Shown here: in pieces, positions 1,945 to 36,532 of the stretch
How positions within the stretch are numbered: the stretch's first letter is position 1
Layout: each line of letters opens with the position of its first letter
DNA from: Ruegeria sp. Alg231-54
Lineage (GTDB): Bacteria; Pseudomonadota; Alphaproteobacteria; Rhodobacterales; Rhodobacteraceae
NCBI RefSeq assembly: GCF_900143525.1
Contig: NZ_FREZ01000017.1
Location: 1 to 64,000, forward strand
Direction of reading: 5' to 3'
DNA length: 64,000 nucleotides
Notes under the pieces: generated by a model
Database searches by the model: none
Told to the model about the DNA's origin: nothing
What the model saw: only the letters and a program-made list of their open reading frames with translations
Program-made: the position numbers and the translations under genes

Positions 1945-1955
1945 GTTAGTCCTTT

Positions 1956-3524
1956 CTAGTACCATTCGTCCGGCATTCGCGCTTTGCGATCTGACACGAA
2001 GTCTTCAAGCGCGGCTTGGATTCCGGGTTCCATTTCGGGGCATTGATAGTCGTTCAACATCTGACGCCACCGCCCGGTGGCGCGTTGATCTGCTGTAAGA
2101 GCACCATTTTCGGACCAGGTCTCGAATGGACCGGCGTCAGAAATCTGTGGCTCAAAATTCGCCGTCGCATAGTGCCGCAGCGTGTGACTGGTCGACAGGA
2201 AATTTTCGCCAGGGCCCGTTTCAAAATAGGCATCACGACCAAAGGCCTCGTCATCCGTTTCGAAGCCCTGCAACAGTTTCAGCATCGCGCCACAGTGGTC
2301 GAGATCCATGATGAATTTCTCGTAGGACATCACAAGCCCACCTTCGAGCCAGCCCGCCGCATGCCAAACCTGATGCGCCCCGGACAAAAGCGTGGACCAC
2401 ATTGCACCGGTGCTATCCTGCAACGCTTGCCCGTCGGGCGCATTTGAGGCGGTGATCTGTCCGCCGCCGGAACGCACAGGCACGCCAAGCCTTCGTCCCA
2501 ATTGTGTAATCGCCATCGTGGTAATGTTCGCCTCTGGCGATCCAAAGGTCAGCGCACCTGTGCGCAAGTTCATTGTGGAGTGGAACGAGCCGAACACCAC
2601 TGGACAGCCAGGATGCACCAGTTGCGCAAGCGCGATGCCAACCATCGCTTCCGCCAGAGTTTGCGCCGCCACCGCCGCCGGCGAAAGCGGGCCCATGGCG
2701 CCCGCGAAAATGGCAGGGGAGACACAAACACATTGGCCGGCCTCCGCATAGATCCGCAGAGCCGACGACATGGTATCATCATAAACCAGCGGCGAATTGA
2801 CGTTGATATTGGCCTGCATCACCGCGTGGCGCTCAATGAAGTCGCGCCCAAAGACCAAGCGTGCCATCTCGATACTATCCCGCGCACGCTCGGGTGCTGT
2901 GACAGAGCCCATAAAGGGCTTGGTCGACAGCGTCAGATGCGCCAGCATCATGTCCAGATGTCGTTTGTTCACCGGTACATCTGTCGGCTCGACTACCGTG
3001 CCGCCGGAATGGTGCAAGGCAGGCGCAGTGTAGGCCAGTTTGACGAAATTGCGGAAGTCCTCCAGCGTCGAATAGCGCCGGCCGTTCACCAGATCGCTGA
3101 CAAAGGGAGAGCCGTATCCAGGCATCAGCACAACGTTGTCGCCGCCAAGTGTCACTGTTTTGACCGGGTCTCGGCCATGCAACTGAAATTCACTAGGGGA
3201 TGTAGCGCAAAGCGCACGGACGTGACCCGGTTCAAACCGTACACGTTCGCCATCGATGCGTACACCGGTTTGAGCGAAGTGATCCAGCGCCGTACGATCT
3301 CCCCGGAACTCGACACCAATATTGTTCAAAATCCAATCGGCTTGATCTTCGATCCGGGTCAGTGCCGTGTCGCTCAGAAGATCGTATGCAGGTATCTTGC
3401 GCCCGGTGAACGGCGTGCCCTCAGAGGGCTTATTGTCGCGGGACAAGCGGCGTCGGCGCACGCGTCTGCGGTGCCCTGCCGGTGTTAATGTGTCTGCTAC
3501 AGCGTTCAAAGGCTCCAACGTCAT
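1956..3524 (-). CDS. MttB-like (trimethylamine methyltransferase family) protein without pyrrolysine
   Basis: 522 residues belonging to the MttB superfamily of corrinoid-dependent TIM-barrel methyltransferases; recognisable blocks are VVLMPGYGSPFVSDL, the GGTVVEPTDVP region and SGGGQITASNAPDGQ. The frame is continuous, with no in-frame amber codon, so this is the non-pyrrolysine subgroup, whose characterised members act on glycine betaine and other quaternary amines rather than trimethylamine. No corrinoid protein or reactivase is visible in the window. It is transcribed divergently from a LysR regulator and leads directly into a GcvT-like gene. The exact quaternary amine is unknown. Confidence 0.85.
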   Translation of the reverse strand: MTLEPLNAVADTLTPAGHRRRVRRRRLSRDNKPSEGTPFTGRKIPAYDLLSDTALTRIEDQADWILNNIGVEFRGDRTALDHFAQTGVRIDGERVRFEPGHVRALCATSPSEFQLHGRDPVKTVTLGGDNVVLMPGYGSPFVSDLVNGRRYSTLEDFRNFVKLAYTAPALHHSGGTVVEPTDVPVNKRHLDMMLAHLTLSTKPFMGSVTAPERARDSIEMARLVFGRDFIERHAVMQANINVNSPLVYDDTMSSALRIYAEAGQCVCVSPAIFAGAMGPLSPAAVAAQTLAEAMVGIALAQLVHPGCPVVFGSFHSTMNLRTGALTFGSPEANITTMAITQLGRRLGVPVRSGGGQITASNAPDGQALQDSTGAMWSTLLSGAHQVWHAAGWLEGGLVMSYEKFIMDLDHCGAMLKLLQGFETDDEAFGRDAYFETGPGENFLSTSHTLRHYATANFEPQISDAGPFETWSENGALTADQRATGRWRQMLNDYQCPEMEPGIQAALEDFVSDRKARMPDEWY

Positions 3525-8578: not shown

Positions 8579-9658
8579 ATGGAAAAGACTCAGGACGCGA
8601 AGATTGTCGATCTGGCAATACGATTGCTCTTTCTCGGACTGTTCCTCTATAGCGCCCTGGTCATGGTGGCCCCGCTTGCAAGTGTGGTTATCTGGGCAAC
8701 GATCCTCTGTGTGGCGCTTTACCCGGCATTTGATTGGCTTCAGTCCAAGCTGGGAGGGCGGAAAAAACTTGCCACGACGATCTTGGTTTTGTTGGGTCTT
8801 GTTCTGACCCTCGGGCCAGTCGCTACCGCGGTGTCTGGTGCTGCAGAACTTGGGTCTGAATTCGCGGAACAAGCAGACAAAGGTGAGTTGAAAGTCCCAC
8901 CTGCGCCCGAGGGTCTCAAGGAGTTGCCCTTGGTGGGAGACAAAATAGCCGATGTCTGGGGATTGTTTGAGCGCAATCTTGACGGCGCGCTTGCGAAGTA
9001 TGGCACGCAAATCCTTGAGATCACCAAATCGCTGTTCGGAAAGGTGTTGGGCATCGGCATCGGACTTCTTGGCTTAGCTTTGTCCGTGTTGATTATGGGA
9101 GCGTTGTTCAGTCCCGGTCCAAATTTGGTCCAGGGTCTTCAGCGCTTTGCCAATCGTGTCTTCGCACCGCGCGGCGGTGAATTCGTAACACTGGCAGGCG
9201 CAACGATTCGGAATGTGACAAAAGGCGTGATTGGTGTAGCAGCCATTCAGGCGGTCTGCGTTTGGATACTATTGGCTTTGTTTGGGATTTCTTCGGCCGC
9301 CACGCTGGCATTTATCTGCCTGATACTCTCGATTATCCAAATCGGGCCCGGATTGGTTCTTATACCGGTAATTATTTACGCATGGAGTTCCATGTCCGGC
9401 GGAACTGCTTTGATCTTCACCGTTTTGGCCGTTCCAGTCATGATAATGGACAGTTTCCTAAGACCCGTTTTCATCTCAAAAGGCCTTGAGACCCCCATGT
9501 TGGTCATCCTCATCGGTGTTCTCGGAGGTATGATGGCGTACGGTTTGATCGGCGTCTTTATGGGGCCGGTTCTCTTCGCTGTTTTCTATGAGCTGTTCAA
9601 AGTGTGGATTGATACTTCGCCCGAAGCCGAGGGCGTTGCTGAGGGTGCGGCGAAATGA
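8579..9658 (+). CDS. AI-2E family transporter (PerM/TqsA type)
   Basis: 359 residues with the AI-2E transporter layout: two early membrane helices, a soluble insert (about residues 90-145), then several helices ending in the conserved LGGMMAYGLIGVFMGPVLFAV block. Characterised relatives export autoinducer-2 or act as Na+/H+ antiporters, so the family name does not fix the substrate. A GGAGGG ribosome site precedes ATG 8579. The stop overlaps the HlyD gene start (ATGA), giving tight coupling to the next two genes. Confidence 0.85.
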   Translation: MEKTQDAKIVDLAIRLLFLGLFLYSALVMVAPLASVVIWATILCVALYPAFDWLQSKLGGRKKLATTILVLLGLVLTLGPVATAVSGAAELGSEFAEQADKGELKVPPAPEGLKELPLVGDKIADVWGLFERNLDGALAKYGTQILEITKSLFGKVLGIGIGLLGLALSVLIMGALFSPGPNLVQGLQRFANRVFAPRGGEFVTLAGATIRNVTKGVIGVAAIQAVCVWILLALFGISSAATLAFICLILSIIQIGPGLVLIPVIIYAWSSMSGGTALIFTVLAVPVMIMDSFLRPVFISKGLETPMLVILIGVLGGMMAYGLIGVFMGPVLFAVFYELFKVWIDTSPEAEGVAEGAAK

Positions 9659-10719
9659 GGAAGACGATATGGACAACCTTGGCTGTCATTCTGATTTTTC
9701 TTGTCTGGTATTTGGTCGCTGATCGGAAAACGCCATTTACCGGGAACGCCAGAGTAAAAGCCGTGGCGACCCAGATTGTCCCGCAGGTGACAGGCACTGT
9801 GACTGACGTACTGGTCGAAAATGGCCAGATAGTCTCGGCCGGAGATGTCCTTGTCCGGATCGACGCGCGACCCTACGAGATTCAGCGCGACAAGGCGGAA
9901 GCTGACCTTGAAGCAGCCACTCAAGAAGTGGGCGCATCTTCGGCAGAGGTAAGAGCGGCACAGGCCAAACTAGCAAGGGCGCAGAGCGATCTGGATACGA
10001 TGCGCATTCAAACGGAACGCGTATTTGCGCTCGAAAAGAAAGGGTTGATTGCTGTCTCAAAGGCCGATGATGCGCGAGGGCAACTGGCAGAGTCCGAGGC
10101 AAACTATGAGAACGCAATTGCGGATCTTGAAAAAGCAAAACAGAGGCTTGGTGACGACGGGATTGAAAACCCGAAAATCCAGCGGGCATTGGCGGCCCTT
10201 GCGGATGCAGAGCTAAACCTTGAGTGGACTGTACTACGAGCTCCGGCGACAGGTGTCATCTCTAACTTGCTGATAGCCCCCGGAACATATGCGCGGTCCG
10301 GCCAGGATCTGTTGACGTTTCTGGACGCAACTGACGTTTGGATCGAGGCGTTTTTTTCCGAGAACAACCTAGGAAGAGCCTCGATAGGTTCTCCGGTTGA
10401 TGTAGTGTTGGACATGCATCCAGGTCAGATTATTCCGGGTGTCATTGAGAGCTTTAGTGCGGCTGTTTCCCTAAGTGGCGGTGATGTGCCCGGGCAATTG
10501 GCGAGCCCGCCAAGCACTAAAGGTTTTTTGCGCGAGCCTGAGAGATTCCCGGTCAGGATCGTTTTACCTGGCTATGAAGCAGGAAGCACCGAAGATGACC
10601 TTCGCTTCCAGCTGAATGGGCAAGCCGATGTGATCATGTACCTAAGTGACAACTCGTTGCTGAACCTTGTAGGTCGAACCTACATCCGCGTGGTTTCAAT
10701 TCTGTCCTATGCGTACTGA
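9655..10719 (+). CDS. HlyD/EmrA-type membrane fusion protein
   Basis: 354 residues: one N-terminal membrane anchor (residues about 5-23), half-lipoyl segment (VDVLVENGQIVSAGDVLVRID pattern), a long alpha-helical hairpin with coiled-coil character (about residues 80-180), the second lipoyl half (LRAPATGVISNL) and a beta-barrel domain. It is the periplasmic adaptor of an export system. Overlaps the upstream permease by 4 bases and the downstream DUF2955 gene by 11 bases, so all three are probably translated together. No outer-membrane channel gene is next to it. Confidence 0.87.
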   Translation: MRKTIWTTLAVILIFLVWYLVADRKTPFTGNARVKAVATQIVPQVTGTVTDVLVENGQIVSAGDVLVRIDARPYEIQRDKAEADLEAATQEVGASSAEVRAAQAKLARAQSDLDTMRIQTERVFALEKKGLIAVSKADDARGQLAESEANYENAIADLEKAKQRLGDDGIENPKIQRALAALADAELNLEWTVLRAPATGVISNLLIAPGTYARSGQDLLTFLDATDVWIEAFFSENNLGRASIGSPVDVVLDMHPGQIIPGVIESFSAAVSLSGGDVPGQLASPPSTKGFLREPERFPVRIVLPGYEAGSTEDDLRFQLNGQADVIMYLSDNSLLNLVGRTYIRVVSILSYAY

Positions 10720-11719
10720 GGACCAACGCTCTGTCACCCGGCTTGCGCTGGGTGTTACCGGCGTCTTTTCATTGGGCCTGTTTCTTGGGTGGCCCCTCGC
10801 CGTCATTGGGGCGGTGTTCGCCGCCCTTTTCCTACAAGCACCTGCCGCATTGCCTCTGGCAGCATTTGCTAAGCTGTTTGTTTTCTCTATTGGATTGATG
10901 TTCATTTCGTTTCTGTTGTCGTCAATCTTCTCACCATATCCGCTTGTATTTCTTATGCTGGTGGCCATTGGAATAATCCTGTCTTTCATATGGTCCGTTT
11001 CAGGCGCCGGAGTTTTACCGGGTGTCATAGCGCTCATGGGCGCATTGATGATTCCGAACCTGGTTCTGCAATCACAGGACCTGGCTTTGGTGCTCGTGTA
11101 TTGGATACCGTTGAACCTGCTATTTGCAGGCTTCGTATCGACGTTGATGTTCGTGTTGATACCCGCTGAACCTCAAACGGCGGCTCAAAAGAAAGCTGTT
11201 TCGCAGGCGAGTTTCGACCCACATCGCCGAATTGTCAGGATGTCTCTTGTCACAGTGCCGTTTGCTATGGCGTTCTTTATTTCCGGAGCGTCTGCATTGC
11301 TGGTTCTGTTCTTCGTCGCGCTGCTGAGCCAGCAACTCGCGGCAATGCCTGCCGCAGGTAAAACCGTTGCAAAAGCCATGCTGACGGCAAACCTCCTTGG
11401 GGCGGCAGTTTCCATCATATGCTATGAAATAAACGTAATAGCTCCGGTTATTTTGACGCCCATTCTGCTGTGTTTTTTCTTTTGCCTGACTCTCGGAGCA
11501 CTTGGAAAATCTCAAGCCCCACTCGCCGCCGCTGCCGGCTCTGCTATTACAACGGCCCTGATCGTATATGGCGGGTCGGTTGCGCCATTTTCAGACGAGG
11601 CTGACGTCAAGAGCATCACTCGAGTTTTACAAGTTGCCAGCGCCGCATTTTTTGTAATCGTTGCATATGTCGTGGTGGATGAATTCTGGCCGGAAAAAGA
11701 ACGCCAGGCACCTCAATGA
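10709..11719 (+). CDS. DUF2955 domain membrane protein (aromatic-acid exporter-like)
   Basis: 336 residues, almost wholly hydrophobic, with about ten membrane helices in two halves separated by a basic loop around residue 155-175. The N-terminal RLALGVTGVFSLGLFLGWPLAVI and repeated helix pattern fit DUF2955, a family related to fusaric acid/aromatic carboxylate exporters and usually encoded beside a HlyD-type adaptor, as here. It probably forms the inner-membrane part of an efflux pump with the preceding gene. Substrate is unknown. Confidence 0.78.
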   Translation: MRTEDQRSVTRLALGVTGVFSLGLFLGWPLAVIGAVFAALFLQAPAALPLAAFAKLFVFSIGLMFISFLLSSIFSPYPLVFLMLVAIGIILSFIWSVSGAGVLPGVIALMGALMIPNLVLQSQDLALVLVYWIPLNLLFAGFVSTLMFVLIPAEPQTAAQKKAVSQASFDPHRRIVRMSLVTVPFAMAFFISGASALLVLFFVALLSQQLAAMPAAGKTVAKAMLTANLLGAAVSIICYEINVIAPVILTPILLCFFFCLTLGALGKSQAPLAAAAGSAITTALIVYGGSVAPFSDEADVKSITRVLQVASAAFFVIVAYVVVDEFWPEKERQAPQ

Positions 11720-12662: not shown

Positions 12663-13352
12663 TCAGAAAAGTGCTCTTGTGCTTGGGCACCATCCTTGCG
12701 GAACGACCACAAGTGAGCCGTATTTTCGCTGAACCAATCCGTCGGCCTCCATCTCTGCCACCAGCTTGGCGAAGGCACTTCGGGACAAGCGACAAATCTC
12801 AGCCAAATGCTGTTGGGTTAGGGGAATGGCGCGGGTCGGCGCAAACGCGTCGGATATCCTGGTCAGGATTGTAAGGCTGCGCAGTTTGGAATCCGCCAGC
12901 ATAAGATCACGGGCAACGCGAATGGCAAGTGCGCCATTTGTGACGGCCAGTGCCCCAAGTGCACGCCATATCGGTTGGTCGTCCTGCTCTAGTTGGATCA
13001 AAGCCTCGTACGGGACCCGAAACAGCTGGCAATCCGTCAGAGCAATCGCGCCAATCTGACGGGGCAAACCGGTGATTGCCGCCGCCTCTCCAAACCAGGC
13101 ACCGGGCCCGAACACATGGCCCAACACGATCCCGGATTGGCCATCGTCCAACTGAATTCCAACAGCGCCTGACACCACGGCAAAAATGGATTGATCGTGA
13201 TCAGAGAGTGCATAAATGCCCGCGCCACTTTCGACACTCACACTCCGACCTGAATTTACCAGGCCGTTAGCCAGACGTGTATCTATCGCACGAAGCCAGG
13301 GAGATGCCGTCATTAAGGCCTGAATCTCGTTTGTTCTGGGTGGTTTCTGCAT
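12663..13352 (-). CDS. Crp/Fnr family transcriptional regulator
   Basis: 229 residues from ATG 13352. N-terminal cyclic-nucleotide-binding-like beta roll (IFAVVSGAVGIQL, VFGPGAWFGEAAAITGLPR), long dimer helix, and C-terminal winged helix with the LTQQHLAEICRLSRSAFAKLV recognition motif. No FNR-type cysteine cluster is seen at the N-terminus, so it is not an obvious oxygen sensor. It is divergent from the beta-barrel/DUF3604 operon with an 86-base gap holding a palindrome, so it is the likely regulator of that operon. Confidence 0.88.
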   Translation of the reverse strand: MQKPPRTNEIQALMTASPWLRAIDTRLANGLVNSGRSVSVESGAGIYALSDHDQSIFAVVSGAVGIQLDDGQSGIVLGHVFGPGAWFGEAAAITGLPRQIGAIALTDCQLFRVPYEALIQLEQDDQPIWRALGALAVTNGALAIRVARDLMLADSKLRSLTILTRISDAFAPTRAIPLTQQHLAEICRLSRSAFAKLVAEMEADGLVQRKYGSLVVVPQGWCPSTRALF

Positions 13353-13377
13353 CAAATATCCAATTTAAGACAATCTC

Positions 13378-13414
13378 CGCACGCGCTTTGGATTATCATA
13401 TCTGAAAGCGTGCG
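13378..13414. promoter_or_regulatory. Candidate operator between crp-type regulator and OM-barrel/DUF3604 operon
   Basis: Inverted repeat CGCACGC at 13378-13384 facing AAAGCGTGCG at 13405-13414; the 7-bp CGCACGC/GCGTGCG arms are perfect. It is centred between the divergent genes and just ahead of the GTG start at 13439. It differs from the standard TGTGA-N6-TCACA Crp site, so either the regulator has another specificity or the repeat is a hairpin. Confidence 0.4.
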
Positions 13415-13438
13415 AACAAGCGCTCTGTATCCGGGAGA

Positions 13439-14422
13439 GTGAATTTGAAGACAAAGGTAGTGCTATTTGCGTTGTCTGCTTCGGTTTTCTTGTCTGCGCA
13501 AAAGGTGCAAGCCGCAGAGGGAGGCATCGAGACCTACCTTCTTGGCAGCCGTGACAGCATGTCGGGCATCCTTCCGCCTCCCGGAACGTACCTAAATAAT
13601 GATTTCGTGTATTTCAGCGGCACTGCTCCCAGCATGGCTTCGGGCGGTGTGGTCGTGACGGACCCTGATGTCGAAGTGTTTACCTATAAATTCAATTTCA
13701 CAAATGTTTTTGACGCGCAGTGGGGCAATACGCGATTGGGTCTCAATTTCAATTTGCCCTACGTTTCGGCAAACGGGCAGTATTCTGGCGACCTCAGCTC
13801 GGGGTTTTCCGGAACCCTCAACGATGACGGCGAACATGCCTTTGGTGATATCGTTCTTTCGCCTCTCTTTAATTGGAGCAAAGGCAAGCTACATACGACA
13901 TTGGCTTTACAGTTCTTTCTGCCCACTGGCCACTATCAGACGACGCAGATCAACGTCGCAAACCGGTCGATTGACGCCCTGAATGCCGGAAAAAACCGAT
14001 TTGCATTTGACCCAACCCTGTCGATGACCTGGTTCGATCCGACCACAGGATGGGAGTATTCAGGATCGTTCGGCGTCACCTTCAGCGCCGAGAACGACGC
14101 CACCGACTATCAGACCGCGCCCGAGGCGCATTTTGAAGGCACGGTCATGCGGCATTTGCCCTACAAACTTGCCCTTGGGGTAACGGGATATGCCTACCAT
14201 CAAATCGGCGATGACAGCGGCAGCGGGGCGGATGGGATCAAGCAATTGCTCGGAGCCGACAGCTTGCAGGCCAGCGTGTATGGTCTCGGCCCTATTGTTA
14301 GTTGGTCAACCCAGATCGGTCAGACGCCAGTTTCTATCAAGGCGAAATATATCAAGGAATTCGAAGCCAAGCGTCGATTTGAAAGCGACAAGGTCTGGAT
14401 GACCATTGGACTGGTGTTCTGA
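13439..14422 (+). CDS. Outer-membrane transporter-like beta-barrel (SphA/phenol MetA degradation family)
   Basis: 327 residues with a signal peptide (cleavage predicted after KVQA, about residue 25) and alternating amphipathic strands ending in a terminal aromatic strand (VWMTIGLVF), as expected for an outer-membrane barrel. The layout, with LNFNLPY, GDIVLSPLFNW, ALQFFLPTGHY and DPTLSMTWFD blocks, matches the Phenol_MetA_deg/SphA family, whose members occur beside aromatic and other hydrophobic-compound catabolic genes. Start is GTG 13439 with a GGGAG site upstream. The stop overlaps the next start (ATGA), first gene of a four-gene operon. Confidence 0.8.
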   Translation: MNLKTKVVLFALSASVFLSAQKVQAAEGGIETYLLGSRDSMSGILPPPGTYLNNDFVYFSGTAPSMASGGVVVTDPDVEVFTYKFNFTNVFDAQWGNTRLGLNFNLPYVSANGQYSGDLSSGFSGTLNDDGEHAFGDIVLSPLFNWSKGKLHTTLALQFFLPTGHYQTTQINVANRSIDALNAGKNRFAFDPTLSMTWFDPTTGWEYSGSFGVTFSAENDATDYQTAPEAHFEGTVMRHLPYKLALGVTGYAYHQIGDDSGSGADGIKQLLGADSLQASVYGLGPIVSWSTQIGQTPVSIKAKYIKEFEAKRRFESDKVWMTIGLVF

Positions 14423-15186
14423 TGAGGTGTGTTCCGTCTATTGTTCTGATGGCGGTCATTCCGGCCTCTGCGATTGCACAGCAGGACAATCAGACATTGG
14501 CCAGCCAAGCCAGCGACCCGACCGCGTCCTTGATGTCGTTTCAACTGCAGAATTTCTATTCACCTTCTTTGCATAATGCGAACGGGGCACTGAACGTTAC
14601 CCAGTTTCGCGCCGCCATTCCGTTTCAGTTGGGGGGGATCAGTAATATTGCCCGCCTGACATTTCCCTCGGTTAAGTATAACTCAAATGGCGACACCGGG
14701 ATCGGCGATGCCACCCTATTCAATCTGGCAGCCTTTGGCCGTTCGTGGGGCCGTTATGGGATCGGTGTCGTGGCCCTGCTGCCAACGGGTGCTGATGGTG
14801 TCAGCGCCGAAAAATGGGGGTTGGGGCCAGCGCTTGGTTTCGTGGCGCGGCCCGGGTGGGGGCTTGCAGGGCTATTCAATCAGAACATTCTGACCGTAGC
14901 CGGCGACAACACGCGACCGGACGTTAACATTTCGACTCTGCAACCCATCGTCAGTTACACGCTTGGTCAGAGCTGGTCGGTCGGCACATCTGACATGGCT
15001 GTTGTTTACGATTGGGACCGATCAGAATTCACCAGCCTGCCGATTGGGCTGAAAGTCTTGAAGTTGACCAAACTCGGCGGTGTCCCGGTTCAGTGGCAGC
15101 TGAGTTATGAGCGTAATTTCTATGATACCGGCACCGGGCCACAAGACACGATCGGCCTGACAGCAAAGCTGTTGGTGCCGAAATGA
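14422..15186 (+). CDS. Second outer-membrane beta-barrel protein
   Basis: 254 residues with a signal peptide ending near ASAIA (residue about 18) and a barrel-like pattern of alternating residues: RAAIPFQLGG, ARLTFPSVKYN, GIGDATLFNLAAFG, GIGVVALLPTG, LQPIVSYTLG, and a C-terminal strand GLTAKLLVPK. It resembles the same broad transporter-like superfamily as the preceding protein but is shorter and diverged. Coupled to the upstream gene by a 4-base overlap and 33 bases before the first DUF3604 gene. Likely an outer-membrane channel; function unknown. Confidence 0.7.
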   Translation: MRCVPSIVLMAVIPASAIAQQDNQTLASQASDPTASLMSFQLQNFYSPSLHNANGALNVTQFRAAIPFQLGGISNIARLTFPSVKYNSNGDTGIGDATLFNLAAFGRSWGRYGIGVVALLPTGADGVSAEKWGLGPALGFVARPGWGLAGLFNQNILTVAGDNTRPDVNISTLQPIVSYTLGQSWSVGTSDMAVVYDWDRSEFTSLPIGLKVLKLTKLGGVPVQWQLSYERNFYDTGTGPQDTIGLTAKLLVPK

Positions 15187-15219
15187 CGATGGGCGGATAT
15201 TTGAACGAAAGGGTTTGAG

Positions 15220-17136
15220 ATGACCATGCATTTGACTCTGGCAACTGCACTTGCGGTGTCACTTACGTTACCCGCGCTGGCGCAGGATACGGCCTCGGCC
15301 GACAACGCGGCTGGTGACCTCAAGGGGCAGCCTTATTCTCCCAATGCCAACCGGGGATTTCCGACCAGGGTCCTGTTCGGTGATACGCATGTCCATTCGG
15401 CATTGTCCGCGGATGCAGGTGGCGGCGGCACGACTTTGATGCCGCGAGACATGTACCGGTTCGCCCGGGGCGAGCAGGTGACGTCGAACACGGGACAACC
15501 CGTCATGCTTGAGCGTCCTTTCGACTTTTACATGCTGACTGAACACACCGATGGCATGGGGGTGATTACCGACATCAAAAAAGGTGCGCCAAACATCATG
15601 GCGGATGCGCAGGGCAAGAAGTTTCACGAGGCGTTCGCGAAGGGCGGTGACGACGCCAAACAGGCCAGCATCGACCTGATCGCGCAATTCAGTCAGGGCA
15701 CGCTGAGCCAAACGTTGCTGTATCAACCCGGGATGCCAGGCTATGACAATACCTGGCGCGATCTGGTACAGGCCGCAGAGGAATTCAACGACCCGCATGT
15801 CTTTACTGCGATGATCGCTTATGAATGGACCTCGTTGACCGAAGGCAACAACCTGCATCGCAATGTCATCTTTCGCGATGGACCTGAGAGGGCGTTGCAA
15901 GTGGTTCCATTCCTGATGGCACCTCCAATGGGCAGCCCGGATCCCCGCGATTTGTGGAAATGGATGCAAAGCTATGAGGACAAGACCGGGGGGGACGTGC
16001 TTGCTATTCCGCACAATCCGAACCTCAGCAACGGCATCATGTTTGCGCTGAATGACACGTTGAACGACAATGCGCCTTTCGATCGAGAGTATCTGCAAAT
16101 CCGGCAGCAATGGGAAAAGCTGGTTGAAATTGGCCAGACTAAAGGAGACAGCGAAACCCATCCGATGCTGTCCCCGACAGATGAGTTTGCCGAATACGAA
16201 CGGTGGGATTGGGCCAATCTGGATGTCTCCGAAGCCAAAACGCCTGAGATGCTCGCCACGGAAATGGTGCGCAATACGCTAAAAAATGGTCTGGCTTTTG
16301 AGCAATCCGATGGGATCAACCCCTTCAAGCTGGGCTTTGTGGGTGGTTCGGATATCCACACCGGGCTGACCACGCAGCTCGACAACAACTTCTTTGGCGC
16401 CTTTACTTGGATGGAGCCGTCAAAAACCCGCGCCACCTCGGTGGCCAAGGGCAATGCGGATTTGGGAATTTCCTATAAGGGTTGGCAATATGCCACTCCG
16501 GGTCCGACGGCCGTCTGGGCCACTGAAAACACCCGGGCAGGTATCTTTGACGCGATGGAACGGCGCGAGGTCTATGCGACGACGGGCCCACGCATCACAG
16601 TGCGGTTCTTTGGCGGAGACTTCGTGGCCGACGACATCAAACACCGCGAGTTGGCCCGGATCGGCTATTCCAAGGGTGTCCCGATGGGGGGCGATCTGGC
16701 GGGTAGCGATGCACCGTCTTTCCTTGTTTACGCCCTGCGTGATCCGATTGGCGCTAACCTGGACCGCATCCAGATTATCAAGGGCTGGGTTGATGCAAAC
16801 GGCGAGACCCATGAAAAAATCCACGACGTGGTTTGGGCCGGTGATCGCACACCCGGTGATGACGGCAAGTTACCAGCCGTCGGAAATACCGTCGATCTGA
16901 GCATCCCAAGCTGGACCAATGATATTGGCCGGGCCGAACTGGGTACCGTGTGGACTGATCCGGAGTTCGACCCCTCGCAGCACGCATTCTACTATGCCCG
17001 TGTTATCGAAATCCCGACGCCACGCTGGACCGCCTATGATGCGGTTCGCTTTGATGTCGACATGCCCGATGAGGTCAAGATGATCACGCAAGAGCGCGCC
17101 TACACCTCGCCGATCTGGAACACACCTGAAGGATGA
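15220..17136 (+). CDS. DUF3604 domain-containing protein, copy 1
   Basis: 638 residues with a signal peptide (cleaved near ALA, residue about 21), so periplasmic. Metal-ligand-like blocks of this PHP-related family are visible: FGDTHVHSAL (residue about 53-62), TEHTDGMG, AYEWTS, AIPHNPNLS and GGSDIHTG. The family is widespread in marine bacteria and has no established reaction that I know of; a metal-dependent hydrolase is the usual guess. The C-terminal third (RIQIIKGWVD, PRWTAYDAVRF) is shared with the next gene. Third gene of the operon behind two outer-membrane barrels; its stop overlaps the next frame. Confidence 0.85.
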   Translation: MTMHLTLATALAVSLTLPALAQDTASADNAAGDLKGQPYSPNANRGFPTRVLFGDTHVHSALSADAGGGGTTLMPRDMYRFARGEQVTSNTGQPVMLERPFDFYMLTEHTDGMGVITDIKKGAPNIMADAQGKKFHEAFAKGGDDAKQASIDLIAQFSQGTLSQTLLYQPGMPGYDNTWRDLVQAAEEFNDPHVFTAMIAYEWTSLTEGNNLHRNVIFRDGPERALQVVPFLMAPPMGSPDPRDLWKWMQSYEDKTGGDVLAIPHNPNLSNGIMFALNDTLNDNAPFDREYLQIRQQWEKLVEIGQTKGDSETHPMLSPTDEFAEYERWDWANLDVSEAKTPEMLATEMVRNTLKNGLAFEQSDGINPFKLGFVGGSDIHTGLTTQLDNNFFGAFTWMEPSKTRATSVAKGNADLGISYKGWQYATPGPTAVWATENTRAGIFDAMERREVYATTGPRITVRFFGGDFVADDIKHRELARIGYSKGVPMGGDLAGSDAPSFLVYALRDPIGANLDRIQIIKGWVDANGETHEKIHDVVWAGDRTPGDDGKLPAVGNTVDLSIPSWTNDIGRAELGTVWTDPEFDPSQHAFYYARVIEIPTPRWTAYDAVRFDVDMPDEVKMITQERAYTSPIWNTPEG

Positions 17137-17141
17137 AGCCG

Positions 17142-18941
17142 ATGAAAACACTTATTATTGCGACATCCACCTTGGCGCTTTCGACTATGGCGTTGGCGGA
17201 ACCCAACCCAATGCGTAACGCATACTTTGGCGAGACCCATATGCATACGGCACTGTCGCTGGATGCATATATAGGTGGTGCACGGCTGATGCCGTCTGAC
17301 AGCCTGCGCTTTGCCAAGGGCGAACCAGTCTTGGTAAATGGGCGTCACAAACAATTGTCGCGCCCGCTCGATTTTGCGGCGGTCAGCGATCACGTGGAAT
17401 ATCTGGGCGAGATGTATTCGACGATATTCCCCGAGGCACCAGGATACGAGCAAGAAGATCTGCAACAACTACGCAGCTTGGAAACGCTGAAAGACAAACA
17501 GGATTGGTTCTACAAGTACGTCATCGCCAACAATCGCGGTGAAAATCCTATCCACCCACCTTTCTATCAGGGGCCTGAGACCACCAAATCCGGTTGGCAG
17601 ATCATCATCGATGCCGCCGAGGAGCACAATGATCCGGGCAGTTTTACCGCCTTGATTGCCTTTGAATGGTCCGCAGCGCCGAACGGTGGCAACATGCATC
17701 GCAACGTGATTTTCCGCGATAGCGTGGTCCCGGACCTTCCGATGTCCAGCTATGATTCCAACAAGGTCGAAGACCTCTGGGACTGGCTGCAAAACGCACA
17801 AGACAATGGATCAACCCTTTTGGCGATCCCGCATAATTCGAACGCGTCAAAGCAGCAGATGTTTCCCGAATTCAACAGTTTTGGCGAAGCACCGGACAAG
17901 GACTGGGCCAGCACCCGGCAGGCTTGGGAGCCGCTGATCGAAATGATGCAGATCAAGGGTAATTCTGAGGTACACGAAGCATTCTGGCAGGCGGATGAGT
18001 TCGCCGGTTTCGAAAACGCAAATTCCATCCAGAAAAACTCAAACCGGTATTTCCACAAGCGCGACTTTGTGCGCGAAGGGTTAAAGCTGGGACTGGCGGC
18101 CCAACAGGAGTTGGGCGTAAATCCCTACAAATACGGGTTCATCGGCGGCACTGACAACCATAACGGTCTGATGTCTGATCTGGCCGAAGATGACTTTATC
18201 GGCGGTCACGGTCCCGAAGATGGTAGTGTTGATCGACGTCGCAAGGGCGGGGTTGGTGGTTGGATCGACGGGATCGACCTTTCGATTGGTTCACTTGCTG
18301 GTGTCTGGGCCGAAGAAAACACCCGAGCCTCGATCTGGGACGCGATGAAACGGCGTGAAACTTTCGCCACTTCCGGGCCTCGGGTCAAAGTGCGGATGTT
18401 CGGTGGCTCGGACCTTGCGGACGATCCGACCGATCCCGTTGCAATGGTGGAAGATGGCTATGAAAACGGAGTGCCGATGGGTGGTGATTTGATAGGAGAC
18501 AAAGCGCCCACTTTCACCGTATATGCGCAAAAAGACCCGGATGGCGCCAATCTGGATCGCATCCAGATCATCAAGGGCTGGGTCGACGCAACGGGCGAGA
18601 TCCACGAAGAGATCATTGACGTGGCCTGGTCCGGCGATCGCGAGATCGCCGCAGATGGCAAACTTCCTTCGGTGGGCAATACTGTCGATCTGACAACTGC
18701 GCTGTATACGAACGAAATTGGTGCCCCAACATTGATGGGCAGTTGGGCTGACGCCGGTTTCGACCCAGAGCAAGGAGCGTTCTATTATGCACGTGCGATC
18801 GAAATTCCGACGCCTAGGTGGTCGACGTATGATGCCGTTCGTTCCGGCCTTCCTTTGTTGGAAGAAGTCCCTGCCACAATTCAGGAACGCGCCTGGGGCT
18901 CGCCGATCTGGTATACGCCCGCCGGACAATCAGAGCCATGA
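17142..18941 (+). CDS. DUF3604 domain-containing protein, copy 2
   Basis: 599 residues from ATG 17142, chosen over ATG 17133 because AAGGA lies about 8 bases upstream. Signal peptide ends near MALA (residue about 19). The same ligand-like blocks occur as in copy 1, with changes: FGETHMHTAL, SDHVEYLG, AFEWSA, AIPHNSNAS and GGTDNHNG (DNH in place of DIH). Large parts, such as NVIFRD, RIQIIKGWVD, GNTVDL and EIPTPRW, are shared with copy 1, so the pair arose by tandem duplication and then diverged. Last gene of the operon; no clear terminator follows. Confidence 0.85.
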   Translation: MKTLIIATSTLALSTMALAEPNPMRNAYFGETHMHTALSLDAYIGGARLMPSDSLRFAKGEPVLVNGRHKQLSRPLDFAAVSDHVEYLGEMYSTIFPEAPGYEQEDLQQLRSLETLKDKQDWFYKYVIANNRGENPIHPPFYQGPETTKSGWQIIIDAAEEHNDPGSFTALIAFEWSAAPNGGNMHRNVIFRDSVVPDLPMSSYDSNKVEDLWDWLQNAQDNGSTLLAIPHNSNASKQQMFPEFNSFGEAPDKDWASTRQAWEPLIEMMQIKGNSEVHEAFWQADEFAGFENANSIQKNSNRYFHKRDFVREGLKLGLAAQQELGVNPYKYGFIGGTDNHNGLMSDLAEDDFIGGHGPEDGSVDRRRKGGVGGWIDGIDLSIGSLAGVWAEENTRASIWDAMKRRETFATSGPRVKVRMFGGSDLADDPTDPVAMVEDGYENGVPMGGDLIGDKAPTFTVYAQKDPDGANLDRIQIIKGWVDATGEIHEEIIDVAWSGDREIAADGKLPSVGNTVDLTTALYTNEIGAPTLMGSWADAGFDPEQGAFYYARAIEIPTPRWSTYDAVRSGLPLLEEVPATIQERAWGSPIWYTPAGQSEP

Positions 18942-19325: not shown

Positions 19326-20588
19326 CTACTCTGAAACAACAGCGAAGACCTCAACCGGTTCCCTGATGCCCTTCATCTCCACCTCTCCCTGGCTTACCGC
19401 CTCTACAACGCCTTCAACGACTGCCTAGGTTCGGGGAGAAATCAGTATCTCATTGTGGGTGGCCATGTCGCAAAGCCGCGCGGCCATGTTGATCAAGGTA
19501 CCTGAGGCAGTGTAATCAAATCGTCCCGCTGAACCGACGATACCGACCGTGGCGTAGCCAAACGAGATGCCAACTCCAAAACCAACCCGATGGCCCAGCT
19601 TTTTCCATTTGCCGCAGAGCTCTAGCATTTTATCTCCCATGGCCAGTGCCAGGCGCACCGCGTCGCCTGCCGGATCATCAACCGGAATCGGATCGTTGAA
19701 GATAACCATAATGCCGTCACCTGCCCGCTGATCGACACCGCCGCCAAACTGGTCGATCAACTCACTCATCTCCTGATGATAGGTTTGGAGGACTTCAATG
19801 GCTTCTTCTGGCTCAGCACTTTCACAAAATGCGGTGAAACCTCGCAAGTCGCAGAGCAGGGTTGCCACGAGCGCGCGATGGGAAGACAACATGCCATCAT
19901 CACCCGAAGTAACCACCGCATCGGCGACGGCGGACGGGAGAAACCGTTTCAGACGGCCCATGCGCTCGATTTCGCCTACCTGAGACTCCACACGCTCATT
20001 CAATTCGGCGTTGAGTGTTTCCAACGCCTTGAACTGGCGAACGTTTTCAATGGCGATGACCGCCTGGGCCGCGAAGGTTTCGAGCAGATCTACTTCGTCC
20101 TGTGTAAAGGCCTTCACCTCCCGGCGGACGAGTGTGATACACCCGATCGCTTGGCCTTCAAGAAGAAGCGGAACACCTAGAATGGTCCGCATGCCTTCCT
20201 CTTCGACCATCGCGACCCGGCCGGGATCGCCCTGAAGGTTAAGATCGGTAGCTGCTAAGTCCTCAATGTTGACGACAGCAGATATCCGCATTGAAACTGC
20301 TGGCACCAGTTTGCTGTCCGCGAGACGGGTTGTCTTTCCCACCGACAGATGGCGCAATCCGTCACCGTGAAGCGTAACCAGCTTCCAATGACTGCGCGTT
20401 TCATTGGGAATGCACAGATTGGCCTGAGGCGCACTCGAAAGGCGTGTTGCTTATTTCAAGATTGTCTCAAAAACAGGCGCGGGATCTGTTCACGCCCTGC
20501 TGATTGCCTGCAGAATTTCGCCCATGGCCGCTTCTCGCTCACGCAAGATCGCGACTTCGGCATTCATGCTTTCTAATTTGTTCGTCAC
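19326..20588 (-). pseudogene. GAF-class III adenylate/guanylate cyclase, inactivated by three in-frame stops
   Basis: Read in one minus-strand frame from GTG 20588 (AGAGG site upstream) to TAG 19326-19328, the product would be about 420 residues: short coiled coil (LREREAAMGEILQAI), GAF domain (LVTLHGDGLRHL, GVPLLLEGQAIGCI, TFAAQAVIAIENVRQF), linker and cyclase domain (LLCDLRGFTAF with the metal Asp, AGDGIMVIFNDP, GVGISFGYATVGIVGS). Three stops break it without any frameshift: TGA after ILQAISRA, TAA after ETILK, TAG after LISPRT; coding similarity continues through each. Homology beyond the last stop (EGVVEAVSQGEVEMKG) shows the C-terminus is present. The central frame 19425-20357 could still be read but lacks both ends. 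Confidence 0.8.
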
Positions 20589-22938: not shown

Positions 22939-24294
22939 ATGGATGGTGCATGTTGCGGACCGGGCTACGCCAGCCCGCAAGAGGCAATCCAGGCCCCGCG
23001 TGAGAAGCTTCTTTACACGATTGCGATTTATACAGGCACGGGCATTCAGAAGCCCGACTATCTTGGGACAGTGGATGTAGACCCGGAAAGCCCAACTTAT
23101 TCTCAGGTGATCCACCGGCTGGAAATGCCGGGGATCGGGGATGAGCTTCATCACATGGGCTGGAATGCCTGTTCGTCCTGCCACGACGACGGCTCAATGT
23201 CGCGAAAATACCTGATCCTGCCTGGCGTGCGTTCCAACAACCTACATATCGTTGATACGGCCACTGACCCACGCGCACCGCGGCTGCACAAGGTTATCGA
23301 CGGGGCCGAGATTAAGGCCAAGGCCGATCTGTCAGGGCCGCATACAGTGCATTGTCTGGGTTCAGAGATCATCATTTCCTTCCTTGGAGATGCCAAGGGC
23401 GAAGCTCCGGGCGGCTATCTGCATCTCGATAAAGAATTCAACATCGTCGGCCGCTGGGAGAACTCGATGGCCGGCATCAAGTTCGGTTATGATTTCTGGT
23501 ACCAGCCCCGCCACAACGTGATGGTGAGTTCCGAATGGGCCGCGCCCAACACCTTTATGCCGGGCTTCGATTTGGAAGAAGTTGGCCATCTGAAATACGG
23601 ACGCGAGTTGCATTTCTGGGATTTCGAAAAACGCGAACCAGTCGAAAGCTTCTATCTAGGCGAAGACGGGCTGTTGCCGTTGGAGGTCAAGTTCCACCAC
23701 GACCCCGACAGCACGCATGGGTTTTGTGGGGCCGCGCTGTCGACCAACGTCATTCACTGGTGGAAAGACAGCGACGACGCGTGGAAGTGGGAAAAGATCA
23801 TCGACGTCGATAACGAGATGCACCCGGAGTGGCCGATCCCGCTGCCAGGAGTGATGTCGGCGATCCTGATCTCGATGGACGACAAATACCTCTATCTCAA
23901 CAATTGGCTTCATGGCGACATGCGCCAATACGACATCACCGACCCGCATAATCCCAAGCTGACCGGCCAAGTATACATGGGGGGGCTTTTGGGCAAGGCG
24001 CCAGCCGTTAATGGGGTTGAGGTCGCTGGCGGTCCACAGATGTTCCAACTCTCTCTCGACGGACGCAGGCTCTATGTCACCACCTCGCTGTTTTCGACTT
24101 GGGACAACCAGTTCTATCCCGAGATCCGCGAAAAGGGCGGAGTAATGGTCATGATAGATTGCGATCCTGAAAATGGCGGCATGAAGATCAACGAAGACTT
24201 TATCGTGGACTTTGGGAAAGAGCCAAATGGCCCCTCGCGCTGCCACGAGAGCCGGTATCCAGGCGGTGATTGCACAAGCGACATTTGGCTATGA
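22939..24294 (+). CDS. mtoX: Methanethiol oxidase (selenium-binding protein SBP56 family)
   Basis: 451 residues covering the whole SBP56 beta-propeller: YTGTGIQKPDYL, the conserved cysteine pair in GWNACSSCHDD (about residue 75-84), HDIQP-type central blocks represented here by HHDPDSTHGFCGAAL, and a C-terminal SRCHESRYPGGDCTSDIWL region. Bacterial members oxidise methanethiol to formaldehyde, sulfide and hydrogen peroxide, a step in DMSP sulfur turnover. An AGGGAGG site precedes ATG 22939. No signal peptide is seen. The usual SCO1 and MauG-like neighbours reported for mtoX are absent; a ferredoxin and a CoA-binding protein follow instead, with a 4-base overlap to the ferredoxin. Confidence 0.85.
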   Translation: MDGACCGPGYASPQEAIQAPREKLLYTIAIYTGTGIQKPDYLGTVDVDPESPTYSQVIHRLEMPGIGDELHHMGWNACSSCHDDGSMSRKYLILPGVRSNNLHIVDTATDPRAPRLHKVIDGAEIKAKADLSGPHTVHCLGSEIIISFLGDAKGEAPGGYLHLDKEFNIVGRWENSMAGIKFGYDFWYQPRHNVMVSSEWAAPNTFMPGFDLEEVGHLKYGRELHFWDFEKREPVESFYLGEDGLLPLEVKFHHDPDSTHGFCGAALSTNVIHWWKDSDDAWKWEKIIDVDNEMHPEWPIPLPGVMSAILISMDDKYLYLNNWLHGDMRQYDITDPHNPKLTGQVYMGGLLGKAPAVNGVEVAGGPQMFQLSLDGRRLYVTTSLFSTWDNQFYPEIREKGGVMVMIDCDPENGGMKINEDFIVDFGKEPNGPSRCHESRYPGGDCTSDIWL

Positions 24295-27437: not shown

Positions 27438-28454
27438 TTACGCCGCCTCACGCCTGAGCGGCTTTTGCATCGCAGCACAAAGGGCACCCACCAGCAGGAC
27501 CGCAGAGGCCACGACGAGGCTATCTCCTATTTCACCGGTTAAGTCGCCGATGATACCAGCCCTGATTGGACCCAATGTCTGTGAAATGGCGAAAACAACT
27601 GTGAAAAAGCTTATGGTTGCACCCCAATCCTGCTGATCCACGTTCTGACGGACAAAGCTGGTGGCTGCAGTGGGTGGCATAAAGACCGATAGCCCGAACA
27701 CCAGTGCCGACAAAATCAGTCCATATCCGGATGGAACCAGGATTGGCAGAGCTGATCCAAATGCGACCCCGGTAAGGATCAGCGCCAACGGCGTTCCGGA
27801 TGAAAAGCGGGCCAAGACCCCGCGCCAAACAAAAGGAGACGCCATAATACTGACCCCAAGAACCATCCATGTTGCGGTGGTCAACAGGACGCTTGAGTGC
27901 TGCTCTTTCATCCAGACCGAGATAAAAGTGACGTACACAATGTAGCCCAATCCGAACAGCGCATACCCACCAAGTTGGCCAAGCATTCTGCGCACCGGTG
28001 GGATGGAAGGAAGTGCGGCGTCGTGTTCGGTTTCGTTCAATTTTGTGGAAGCCCAAACCGAAAACGGGCAAATGACCAGGGCTGCCAACCCGACCCCGAT
28101 CCACGCCCAGTCCCAATATTGTGGTCCGAATACGTCCAACATACTCGGAAGGGTTGCGCCGCATAACGCGATACCAAATCCGCCGCCACCGCCAAAGTAT
28201 AAGGCGATGGCCAGCGCATTCTTTCGGGCGCTACTCTGGAACAGCGATGCCGCAAGTACGCCGCCTGACACAAAGGAAAGAGCACCAAACAACCCAACCA
28301 AAGTACGACAAGCAGTTTGAAACACGAGGCTCTCATCAAACCCGGTCGCCAAAAGGCACAATGCGGTCGCAGCTTGCCAACCGAAGCTTGGCTGCCTTGA
28401 CGCATTGAAAACGCGCCTCCCAAAATTCACCACTAACACACTATGGCAGGCCAT
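27438..28454 (-). pseudogene. MFS transporter (YbfB/YjiJ-like), N-terminally truncated
   Basis: The frame carries about ten membrane helices of a major facilitator protein (GGVLAASLFQSSARKNALA, YVTFISVWMKEQ, ALVFGLSVFMPPTAATSFV, FFTVVFAISQTLGP), resembling YbfB/YjiJ-type permeases. It begins in the middle of what should be helix 2: roughly the first 50-60 residues and the first cytoplasmic signature loop are missing. Its beginning overlaps the stop of the HpaI-type aldolase gene, so a deletion joined the transporter to the end of the uronate cluster. A shortened protein may still be made from an internal start. Confidence 0.6.
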
Positions 28455-29208
28455 CGCGCACCTGGGCCAAAGCGTCTTTTGAAGCAGCTGCCATCAAGCG
28501 GGCGTCCGAAGCTATTGTGACAAACTGGAACCCCATTTCAATGCGTTTCAAGGCGTATTGCGGTGTCCCGTTATGGCAACCTGCAAATTTCCCATATTCT
28601 TTTGCCTTGGCGGCTGTCATTTCAATGGCCTCGGCCACAGGAGCTTCGACGTCATCGAATGACGGTCGACAACCCAGTGCTAGGGAAAGATCGGAAGGTC
28701 CAATGTAGACGGCGTCAAGACCCGGAACCGACAGTATTTCTTCAAGGTTGTCGAGACCTTGCAGCGTCTCAATCATTGCGAAGACGACAATCGTGTCATT
28801 GGCATGCTCTGGGTAGTCTGAACCACCGTACAAGAGGCCCCGGATCGGCCCAAAGCTCCTTGTTCCTTTGGGAGGGTAGTGCGTCCAGGCCACAAGGTTC
28901 TCAGCATCTTCGCGGCTATTAATCATTGGACAAATAACACCGTAAGCCCCGGCATCTAGCACTTTCATCAAAATACCGGGCTCGAGCCACGGCACGCGCG
29001 TTACTGGGACGGTATCGGTTGTCGAAATCGCAGTGAACATCTCGACCGCCTTCTGGTAGTCGATTACGCCATGTTGGATATCAACAGTAAGTGTGTCCCA
29101 TCCTTGATGCGCCATGGTTTCGGCTGAGAAACCGCTTGGGATCGACAGCCATCCGTTGACTACAGGCCGCCCAGCGGCCCAATGCTCTCTAATTTTGTTT
29201 GGTCGCAT
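28441..29208 (-). CDS. HpcH/HpaI-type aldolase
   Basis: 255 residues of the class II pyruvate-dependent aldolase family: NGWLSIPSG near the start, VDIQHGVIDY, the metal/substrate region in VFAMIETLQGLDNL, and YIGPSDLSLALG. Members cleave 2-keto-3-deoxy sugar acids to pyruvate plus an aldehyde. It follows the uronate dehydrogenase and lactone-processing genes, so the likely substrate is 5-keto-4-deoxy-glucarate, giving pyruvate and tartronate semialdehyde, which the oxidoreductase at 35635-36507 could reduce. This pairing is inferred from context; the family also includes homoprotocatechuate-pathway aldolases. Confidence 0.85.
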   Translation of the reverse strand: MRPNKIREHWAAGRPVVNGWLSIPSGFSAETMAHQGWDTLTVDIQHGVIDYQKAVEMFTAISTTDTVPVTRVPWLEPGILMKVLDAGAYGVICPMINSREDAENLVAWTHYPPKGTRSFGPIRGLLYGGSDYPEHANDTIVVFAMIETLQGLDNLEEILSVPGLDAVYIGPSDLSLALGCRPSFDDVEAPVAEAIEMTAAKAKEYGKFAGCHNGTPQYALKRIEMGFQFVTIASDARLMAAASKDALAQVRDGLP

Positions 29209-29257
29209 CGGTTTACCTTTTCAGAGTATCCACACATATGGCCTGATCGTATTGGCT

Positions 29258-30058
29258 CTATTCCTCAAGAATGCCCTGACCACAAAATTCCCCGCCCTGA
29301 TAAACTGCGGATACTTCGTCGATCTCAGGTTGTGTGCATTCGGCATCAATACGTGCGCGAAACACCTCGGAGTTGTCTTTTGGCTTCCATCCCAAAAAGC
29401 GTGTCTCACGATTGTCCCACCAGGATGCGTCGTTGTTCGAGGCACCGTAGATAATCGGGCATCCCAAACGCGGAATAGTGAAAACACTCTCGATAAGAGA
29501 TTTCAGATCATCGTAACTCAACCACGTTGCAAGCATGCGATGGTTCTTTGGTTCCGGAAACGATGAACCAATGCGGACAATTGCTGTCTCTATATTGAAT
29601 TTCTCGAAGTAAAGCCGTGCGAGAGCTTCTCCGAAGACTTTTGACACTCCATAAAGACTATCGGGCCTTACCTGTGCATTGGCATCAAGCCGCGTTGTCT
29701 GTTCATGAAAGCCAATCGCGTGATTTGAACTGGCAAAAAGTATCCTCGGCGTTACCGACGATTTTCGGGCCGCTTCATAGAGATTGAATACACCGTCGAT
29801 ATTGGATTGTTTTATAGTTTCCCAGGGTGCTTCGATCGATTGCCCCCCCATGTGAACAATCCCATCGCACCCTTCGACCATGGCCTCAACCGCATCTTTG
29901 TCGCCCAAGTCACAATACACAATTTCTTCATTTTCACCGGCAGGGCCCACATCCTCTCGCGCGCCAAGGCGAATTGTTGTGGCGAGGCCCTGCAAACGAG
30001 ACCGACAAACCGACCCGAGGTTGCCATCAGCACCCGTTATCAAAAGTTTGTTTAGCAC
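29258..30058 (-). CDS. udh: NAD-dependent uronate dehydrogenase-like protein
   Basis: 266 residues, extended short-chain dehydrogenase: GADGNLGSVCRS cofactor loop at the start, HMGGQSIEAPW, ASSNHAIGFH and the catalytic YGVSK (Tyr-x-x-x-Lys). The short length, the ASSNHAIG motif and the C-terminal FLGWKPKDNSE segment match uronate dehydrogenases, which oxidise D-galacturonate or D-glucuronate to the aldaro-1,5-lactones with NAD. Start codon is GTG at 30058. Neighbours encoding a lactone isomerase and a cycloisomerase supply the next two steps, as in Agrobacterium. Confidence 0.83.
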   Translation of the reverse strand: MLNKLLITGADGNLGSVCRSRLQGLATTIRLGAREDVGPAGENEEIVYCDLGDKDAVEAMVEGCDGIVHMGGQSIEAPWETIKQSNIDGVFNLYEAARKSSVTPRILFASSNHAIGFHEQTTRLDANAQVRPDSLYGVSKVFGEALARLYFEKFNIETAIVRIGSSFPEPKNHRMLATWLSYDDLKSLIESVFTIPRLGCPIIYGASNNDASWWDNRETRFLGWKPKDNSEVFRARIDAECTQPEIDEVSAVYQGGEFCGQGILEE

Positions 30059-30089
30059 TTTGTATAACTCACTTTTTAGCAGGCAGCGT

Positions 30090-33812: not shown

Positions 33813-33828
33813 GGGCTGGATCCTTCTG

Positions 33829-34752: not shown

Positions 34753-34824
34753 ATTCCGGTTTCCAGTACTTCGAAGTTTGACAAACGGTAGCGTTCGACA
34801 ATTAGGTAACCTGTTCTGCAGTGG

Positions 34825-35568: not shown

Positions 35569-35634
35569 GATCGTTCTTTCCCGTCCAAATAGTGCTTCGA
35601 AATTTGCTATCTTGGGTTCTTGCTGTGCCCAGCG

Positions 35635-36507: not shown

Positions 36508-36532
36508 ATCTGACTCCTTACACTCTTTCTGA

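Follow-up and report, generated by a model that had tools for sequence, protein, structure and literature searches.

A DUF3604 operon of Ruegeria sp. Alg231-54 and the foldase/HupE pair that co-occurs with DUF3604 genes

DUF3604 is a protein family scarcely mentioned in the open-access literature searched, where its identifier PF12228 was not found and where, in the available part of one report, the family appears in a Chlamydia transposon table. Two members are encoded in tandem in Ruegeria sp. Alg231-54, within the 64,000-nucleotide stretch analysed here (contig NZ_FREZ01000017.1, positions 1 to 64,000; hereafter the window), in which positions 13439-18941 hold the four plus-strand genes of one operon: b1 and b2, for barrel-type proteins, followed by DUF3604-A and DUF3604-B. 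An earlier note, made from the sequence alone, had seen in this operon a candidate uptake and hydrolysis system under the control of a divergent Crp/Fnr-type gene. By examining the predicted folds of the proteins, the conservation of the locus, and the genes that accompany DUF3604 in other genomes, we were led to a helper pair encoded elsewhere in the genome, consisting of a PpiC-type foldase and a HupE-type membrane protein.

The operon and its upstream region

The first gene, b1 (13439-14422, plus strand), encodes an outer-membrane barrel of the COG4313/SphA type; the protein ends in Phe, matches Phenol_MetA_deg (PF13557) with E 1.7e-43 and 149.8 bits (cut-off 22), and its family profile finds the COG4313 channel 4rl8 in the Protein Data Bank (PDB; E 1.7e-4). 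According to the available part of its description, this channel is a 12-stranded barrel implicated in the uptake of hydrophobic molecules (PMC4493636), in agreement with the earlier note, which had linked SphA-type barrels to the catabolism of hydrophobic or aromatic compounds. The next gene, b2 (14422-15186, plus strand), encodes an exported protein without a match in Pfam or a direct match in the PDB; a profile-profile comparison relates it distantly to b1 (probability 88%, E 2.9e-6), and on this sequence likeness it is probably a second barrel. DUF3604-A (15220-17136) and DUF3604-B (17133-18941), both on the plus strand, match DUF3604 over the whole domain with E 7.7e-224 and 1.2e-211 (744.9 and 704.7 bits; cut-off 20.4). 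Sec-type signal peptides were recognized by eye at the N-termini of all four proteins, so that two exported barrel-type and two exported DUF3604 proteins are indeed encoded, as judged from the Pfam and profile matches together with these signal peptides. The genes are tightly coupled, but less uniformly than had been described: the 4-base overlap is confined to A and B, while b1 and b2 overlap by 1 base and a 33-base gap separates b2 from A.

Divergent from the operon lies the Crp/Fnr-type regulator gene (12663-13355, minus strand; cNMP_binding E 3e-15), which probably starts at an ATG at 13352; its product reaches 34.6 bits with the top Crp model of NCBIfam, the cut-off of which is 266. The 83 bases between regulator and operon (13356-13438) contain the perfect 7-bp dyad CGCACGC-23-GCGTGCG. 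As an operator, however, the dyad was rejected, because it is not conserved and lies within chance: of 5000 random 83-base regions simulated, 14.7% contained a perfect 7-bp inverted repeat with a loop of at most 40 bases, the left arm is altered in locus L009, which has a B protein of 97% identity, and the dyad was not seen in seven further Crp-bearing loci with a readable intergenic region (that of L046 was unreadable). On the operon side opposite the Crp-type gene, a minus-strand frame at 19425-20357 encodes GAF and class III nucleotide cyclase domains and is apparently 5'-truncated, since same-frame stops lie upstream.

DUF3604 proteins and their loci

Structure models of DUF3604-A and DUF3604-B (predicted local distance difference test scores of 92 and 95) predict a PHP fold with a C-terminal beta-sandwich. 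Two alignments combined the two proteins of the window with selections from 54 clade-A and 81 clade-B plus-strand members (the clades are described below); A1 has 44 A and 18 B rows, whereas A2 has 62 B and 10 A rows. Across these 62 and 72 aligned rows the four PHP motifs H-x-H, (D)H, H, and D-x-H are present with invariant His and Asp, and nine putative metal ligands are invariant, corresponding to H57, H59, D65, H109, E202, H213, H265, D378, and H380 in DUF3604-A and to H36, H38, D44, H87, E178, H189, H234, D341, and H343 in DUF3604-B (numbering converted by hand). The PHP-like character that the earlier note had ascribed to DUF3604 agrees with the models, and neither protein lacks any of the putative ligands. 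The PHP match of the DUF3604-B model emerged only in a second look with VIA; the top 50 Foldseek matches of that model were beta-sandwich and unrelated folds only, and a DUF3604 sequence search of the PDB returned no significant or relevant match.

A midpoint-rooted tree of DUF3604 frames 560 or more residues long (146 sequences, with the duplicate L008 omitted) separates two deep clades, 64 sequences in A and 82 in B, which co-occur in several phyla; DUF3604-A and DUF3604-B of the window each belong to the clade of the same letter. Three marks in loops beside the putative ligands distinguish them: H-N after the last metal motif (79/82 B, 8/64 A), the longer (P/S)-H-N-(S/A/P)-N-(A/G/E) (79/82 B, 0/64 A), and an E-(Y/F/W)-x-(G/S) turn after motif II (82/82 B, 0/64 A). 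In motif II itself, Glu replaces Asp in 21 of the 64 clade-A members. The change from DIH to DNH in the last motif of the second copy, which the earlier note had taken for a change of ligand, is not one: the Asp and His are invariant, and only the middle residue differs, being S, T, I, V, A, L, H, or M in clade A and N, S, T, I, or G in clade B. Since this residue varies freely, the argument from it for divided roles of the two proteins was rejected.

Conservation of the locus was surveyed with DUF3604-B peptides, which found 95 loci in a genome collection; the neighbours of the best 80 were mapped with hidden Markov models (HMMs), and the counts are lower bounds because many contigs end early. 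A clade-A gene lies within 5 kb of B in 55/80 loci and is directly adjacent on the same strand in 27/80. Within the same distance, a barrel of any of three groups is found in 46/80 loci (b1 in 35, b2 in 14, and b9 in 9), the foldase in 34/80, a HupE-like gene in 35/80, a sulfatase in 15/80, and a Crp-type gene in 11/80. As a control for distance, we compared the region up to 4.5 kb with the shell from 5 to 9.5 kb in the 43 loci that extend at least 9.5 kb on each side. Near and shell counts were 29 vs 0 for A, 19 vs 0 for b1, 23 vs 1 for HupE, and 22 vs 8 for the foldase, as against 12 vs 4 for the sulfatase, 6 vs 2 for b2, and 8 vs 4 for Crp; by these counts the sulfatase, b2, and Crp links are weaker than those of A, b1, and HupE.

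Gene order is conserved in part. The earlier note had named conservation of the order barrel-barrel-DUF3604-DUF3604-Crp as a check of its reading; A/B pairs do recur, and b1-b2-A-B is found again in a metagenome-assembled genome of Verrucomicrobia (L061), but the full order with Crp was found in 0/80 loci. L018 has b1-b2-A-B with a sulfatase gene inserted between A and B; L026, L027, and L030 have b1-B-b2-A; and in Ruegeria sp. A3M17 (L009), the nearest relative, the order is Crp-b1-A-B, with b2 mostly deleted and only a short remnant left. CTPTR-motif sulfatases lie inside or beside DUF3604 operons in L014, L018, L023, and L033 (in the last, one is split over two frames), hinting at sulfated substrates. 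The window itself encodes a CTAGR-motif sulfatase (57421-59052, minus strand) that matches the profile of the DUF3604-adjacent ones. No substrate was indicated by the neighbour clusters, which were inspected by eye and only some of which are annotated, or by four annotated plasmid stretches.

The family is unevenly distributed in the genus, with matches in 34/41 genomes and 0 to 9 in each, fragments counted, among them further damaged or partial ones; of five further stretches inspected, two have a B-type copy (G100 and G090, contig edge). The Alg231-54 genome has nine matches, seven of which belong to clade A and lack a partner of clade B. One of the nine has an internal stop and lies near a sulfatase gene and an intact copy (L007 and L089:6302-8236, contig C34). 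Such variability would suit detoxification, in which the DUF3604 proteins of the operon would break down a toxic hydrophobic ester without any uptake that feeds growth; consistent with this, no pathway gene set recurs among the listed neighbour clusters (by eye, most clusters being unannotated). COG4313 barrels would nevertheless let the poison in, and we regard detoxification as very unlikely. The clade data bear on another model, that of the earlier note, by which the two enzymes act one after the other on a single imported substrate and need no helpers. The joint occurrence of A and B genes in several phyla favours it, and the inserted sulfatase of L018 suggests a multi-step cascade, whereas the seven unpartnered clade-A matches of the Alg231-54 genome do not fit.

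A foldase/HupE pair that co-occurs with DUF3604

Two further genes adjoin DUF3604 in many loci. One encodes a PpiC-type foldase with a Rotamase_2 match and, by eye, a hydrophobic N-terminus, whose relatives in the PDB are cell-binding factor 2, HP_0175, SurA, and PrsA. The other encodes a protein of the HupE/UreJ_2 type whose N-terminal domain is exported, and for which a sequence search of the PDB returned nothing relevant. Both lie outside the window operon in the Alg231-54 genome: the best pair is on contig C27, beside another DUF3604 gene (PF13795 166.1 bits for the HupE protein), and a second, weaker pair lies elsewhere on C27. The motif H-x5-D-H, which we take to be that named for the HupE/UreJ family, corresponds to H153, D159, and H160 and is invariant in 27 aligned rows.

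In a sample of 199 Pseudomonadota genomes, DUF3604 is present in 14, and the foldase in 13 of these 14 vs 0 of the 185 others (Fisher p 1.7e-19, uncorrected for relatedness). Full-length HupE is found in the same 13 genomes, and the remaining HupE matches begin at model position 104 or later. A sample of 61 genomes of the bacterium's own family gave DUF3604 matches in 12, full-length in 9; the weak partial matches of G009, G014, and G040 were set aside. The foldase and full-length HupE occur in 9/9 of the genomes with full-length DUF3604 vs 1/52 others, and a b2-type gene in 8/9 vs 2/52. Linkage alone does not account for the co-occurrence, because three of the nine (G005, G031, and G057) have the pair on contigs that contain no DUF3604 match. 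Beyond these samples, we searched the hosts of 40 of the 80 loci, hand-chosen from several phyla and mostly isolates: the foldase was found in 40/40, always with E 6.6e-38 or better, and HupE in 35/40 at E 1e-60. DUF3604-foldase-HupE sets also lie on annotated plasmids of Rhizobium, Ensifer, and Roseibium, and a DUF3604 tandem on a Rhodobacteraceae plasmid. Shared ecology, by which the sequential model would make foldase and HupE mere passengers, does not readily yield the contrast of 13/14 with 0/185, nor the substitution of the metal part next to the foldase that is described below; we consider that model quite unlikely.

The five genomes without a close HupE match (L059, L073, L078, L079, and L081), which we take to be Flavobacteriaceae, all hold together the foldase, a protein termed hup17, an ATP-binding cassette (ABC) ATPase, a MacB/FtsX-type permease, and a ZnuA-type protein; clusters in the order foldase-hup17-ABC-MacB/FtsX-ZnuA are found in L059, L073, L079, L081, and L116. 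In four hup17 proteins the match to the HupE model runs from positions 5-9 to 152, 173, 320, and 320, which makes them diverged HupE relatives, although the two tested have no Pfam match. In these five Flavobacteria, then, the place of HupE is taken by a diverged relative and a ZnuA/MacB-type ABC set with a binding protein of the ZnuA family. A HupE-type and a hup17-type gene are adjacent in the Alg231-54 genome (L091:542-4893, contig C30), beside a metallo-beta-lactamase-fold gene and near a DUF3604 copy.

These metal-related partners could also be explained by metal scavenging, in which the barrels admit hydrophobic metal-ligand complexes, periplasmic DUF3604 enzymes remove the ligand by hydrolysis, and the freed metal enters through HupE or the ZnuA/MacB set, so that the tie with HupE reflects uptake rather than maturation. 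The direction of transport fits: in the accessible portions of two papers, HupE/UreJ proteins are nickel uptake permeases (PMC4771312; PMC12537917), and MacB-like ABC sets with zinc-binding partners are, again from partly available sources, implicated in zinc import (PMC8561739, PMC9820375), the flavobacterial set resembling the Zrg-type zinc importers of the latter. Against scavenging stands G038, where nine full-length DUF3604 genes (11 matches with fragments) are accompanied by two foldase/HupE pairs. It also leaves the foldase unexplained and has no place for the sulfatases within 5 kb in 15/80 loci, and the pair is unlinked in three of the nine family genomes. We judge it unlikely.

Proposed maturation and the closest known systems

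A maturation service is the best explanation of the co-occurrence, because the pair is kept whenever DUF3604 is present, sometimes elsewhere in the genome, and because its metal part is replaceable. By a small degree, we favour reading the DUF3604 proteins as exported metallohydrolases for hydrophobic esters, for which a dedicated foldase/HupE pair would provide folding and metallation in trans. In this scheme b1, and probably b2, would pass a hydrophobic or amphiphilic ester across the outer membrane, and the two Sec-exported proteins of predicted PHP fold would hydrolyse ester bonds of phosphate or carboxyl type, perhaps not the same bond in each case. Because they would leave the cytoplasm unfolded, they would fold and acquire metal outside it, with the help of the PpiC-type foldase and of the HupE/UreJ-type permease with its extra N-terminal domain, which in Alg231-54 would be supplied from C27; one to three such pairs would serve every DUF3604 enzyme of a cell. 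As a more general statement, to which we give slightly less than an even chance, DUF3604 proteins would be clients of a dedicated extracytoplasmic folding-and-metallation machine, made up of a PpiC-type foldase with a HupE-type protein or, in some Flavobacteria, with hup17 and the ZnuA/MacB-type ABC set. The metal may be one unusual for a PHP fold, for example nickel. Dedicated accessory systems exist for cytoplasmic urease and hydrogenase; we know of none for an exported PHP-fold hydrolase.

Published work both supports and limits this proposal. The enzyme Sb-PDE of Sphingobium TCM1 is a precedent for an exported, zinc-containing PHP phosphodiesterase (PMC5460133), and some HupE-type proteins carry a metal-binding N-terminal domain, as stated in the available part of PMC12537917. 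Several points weigh against the scheme. Sb-PDE made in E. coli was active without any added helpers (PMC5460133), so PHP enzymes in general do not need them; and the import direction of HupE/UreJ, which is wrong for metallating an exported enzyme, is a weak point of the scheme. The profiles used to score co-occurrence came from genes that neighbour DUF3604, and most pairs of the phylum sample adjoin DUF3604. Individual genomes depart from the pattern as well: the fourteenth Pseudomonadota genome (G220), which lacks the foldase, has a DUF3604 match that is weak and partial though its frame is open; G250 has the pair with a mere short DUF3604 remnant, and G008, 82% complete, has the pair without DUF3604. 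Finally, no b1- or b2-type gene accompanies two of the DUF3604-foldase-HupE sets, both rhizobial, within the stretches inspected, which makes the barrels optional.

No description of the foldase/HupE pairing with DUF3604 was found in the open-access literature searched, subscription journals being mostly uncovered. The predicted PHP fold and the near-constant pair turn a little-studied family into a testable one. Should the helper role hold, it would show how an exported hydrolase gains its fold and its metal in bacteria, and it could account for poor results with such enzymes expressed alone. DUF3604 may also matter in sea and soil, where hydrophobic esters of phosphate, sulfate, or carboxyl type are turned over.

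Other genes of the window belong to different systems. An MttB-family methyltransferase gene overlaps a GcvT-type gene as a demethylation pair (853-3524, minus strand), and an efflux-like operon couples an AI-2E-family permease, an HlyD-type adaptor, and a DUF2955 membrane protein (8579-11719, plus strand). A SBP56 protein is encoded beside an IclR-type regulator (22939-24294, plus strand; 151 bits vs the methanethiol oxidase cut-off of 650). A catabolic cluster of sugar-acid type (27438-39977, minus strand) comprises a KDPG-type aldolase, an enolase-superfamily enzyme, an amidohydrolase, a RraA-like protein, an HpcH-type aldolase, dehydrogenases, and a tripartite ATP-independent periplasmic (TRAP) transporter; and at 41807-52991 genes for a branched-chain/urea-type ABC transporter are followed by those for the urease alpha subunit and UreF.

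Among known systems, the comparators in the PHP superfamily are BVU_3505 (3e38), TM0559 (2anu), BAD_1165 (3e0f/3o0f), and Sb-PDE, from which DUF3604 differs by its size of about 600 residues, long insertions, C-terminal beta-sandwich, and tie with the foldase and HupE. CehA/McbA (NF038032), which we take to be the carbaryl and carbofuran hydrolases, resemble it by eye in motif order, a G-P hinge, and a C-terminal (S/T)-(N/S)-P-I. Membership in that family was rejected: the NF038032 HMM (cut-off 80 bits) gave no match to the DUF3604 proteins at E up to 10 and 0 matches in the Alg231-54 genome, and the profile-profile comparison was weak (probability 16-17%, E 0.0015-0.0016, over 47-50 columns, with just 5 rows on the CehA side). 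The COG4313 channels Pput2725, SphA, and TcpY are likewise exported and of similar length, and the b1 profile finds the COG4313 entry 4rl8; here, however, the operon partner is DUF3604 instead of a phenol or sphingosine pathway, and b2 lacks a direct PDB match.

On the side of the helpers, the 'anglerases' of PMC12537917, as far as that paper is available, share a HupE_UreJ_2 domain behind an exported N-terminal domain; neither 'peptidyl' nor 'isomerase' occurs in its main text, and its available passages on DUF families name others. Where the anglerase type has His as the first residue of the mature N-terminal domain, the presumed first mature residue of the proteins described here is His in only 18/27 rows, with 6 Asp and 3 Asn (by eye). 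The Zrg-type zinc transporters (ZrgABCDE of V. cholerae and PA4063-4066 of P. aeruginosa), from the accessible parts of their descriptions, combine a MacB-like ABC system with an exported zinc-binding protein, as do the five Flavobacteria; in the latter, however, the binding protein is of the ZnuA family, and the set is joined to the foldase and hup17.

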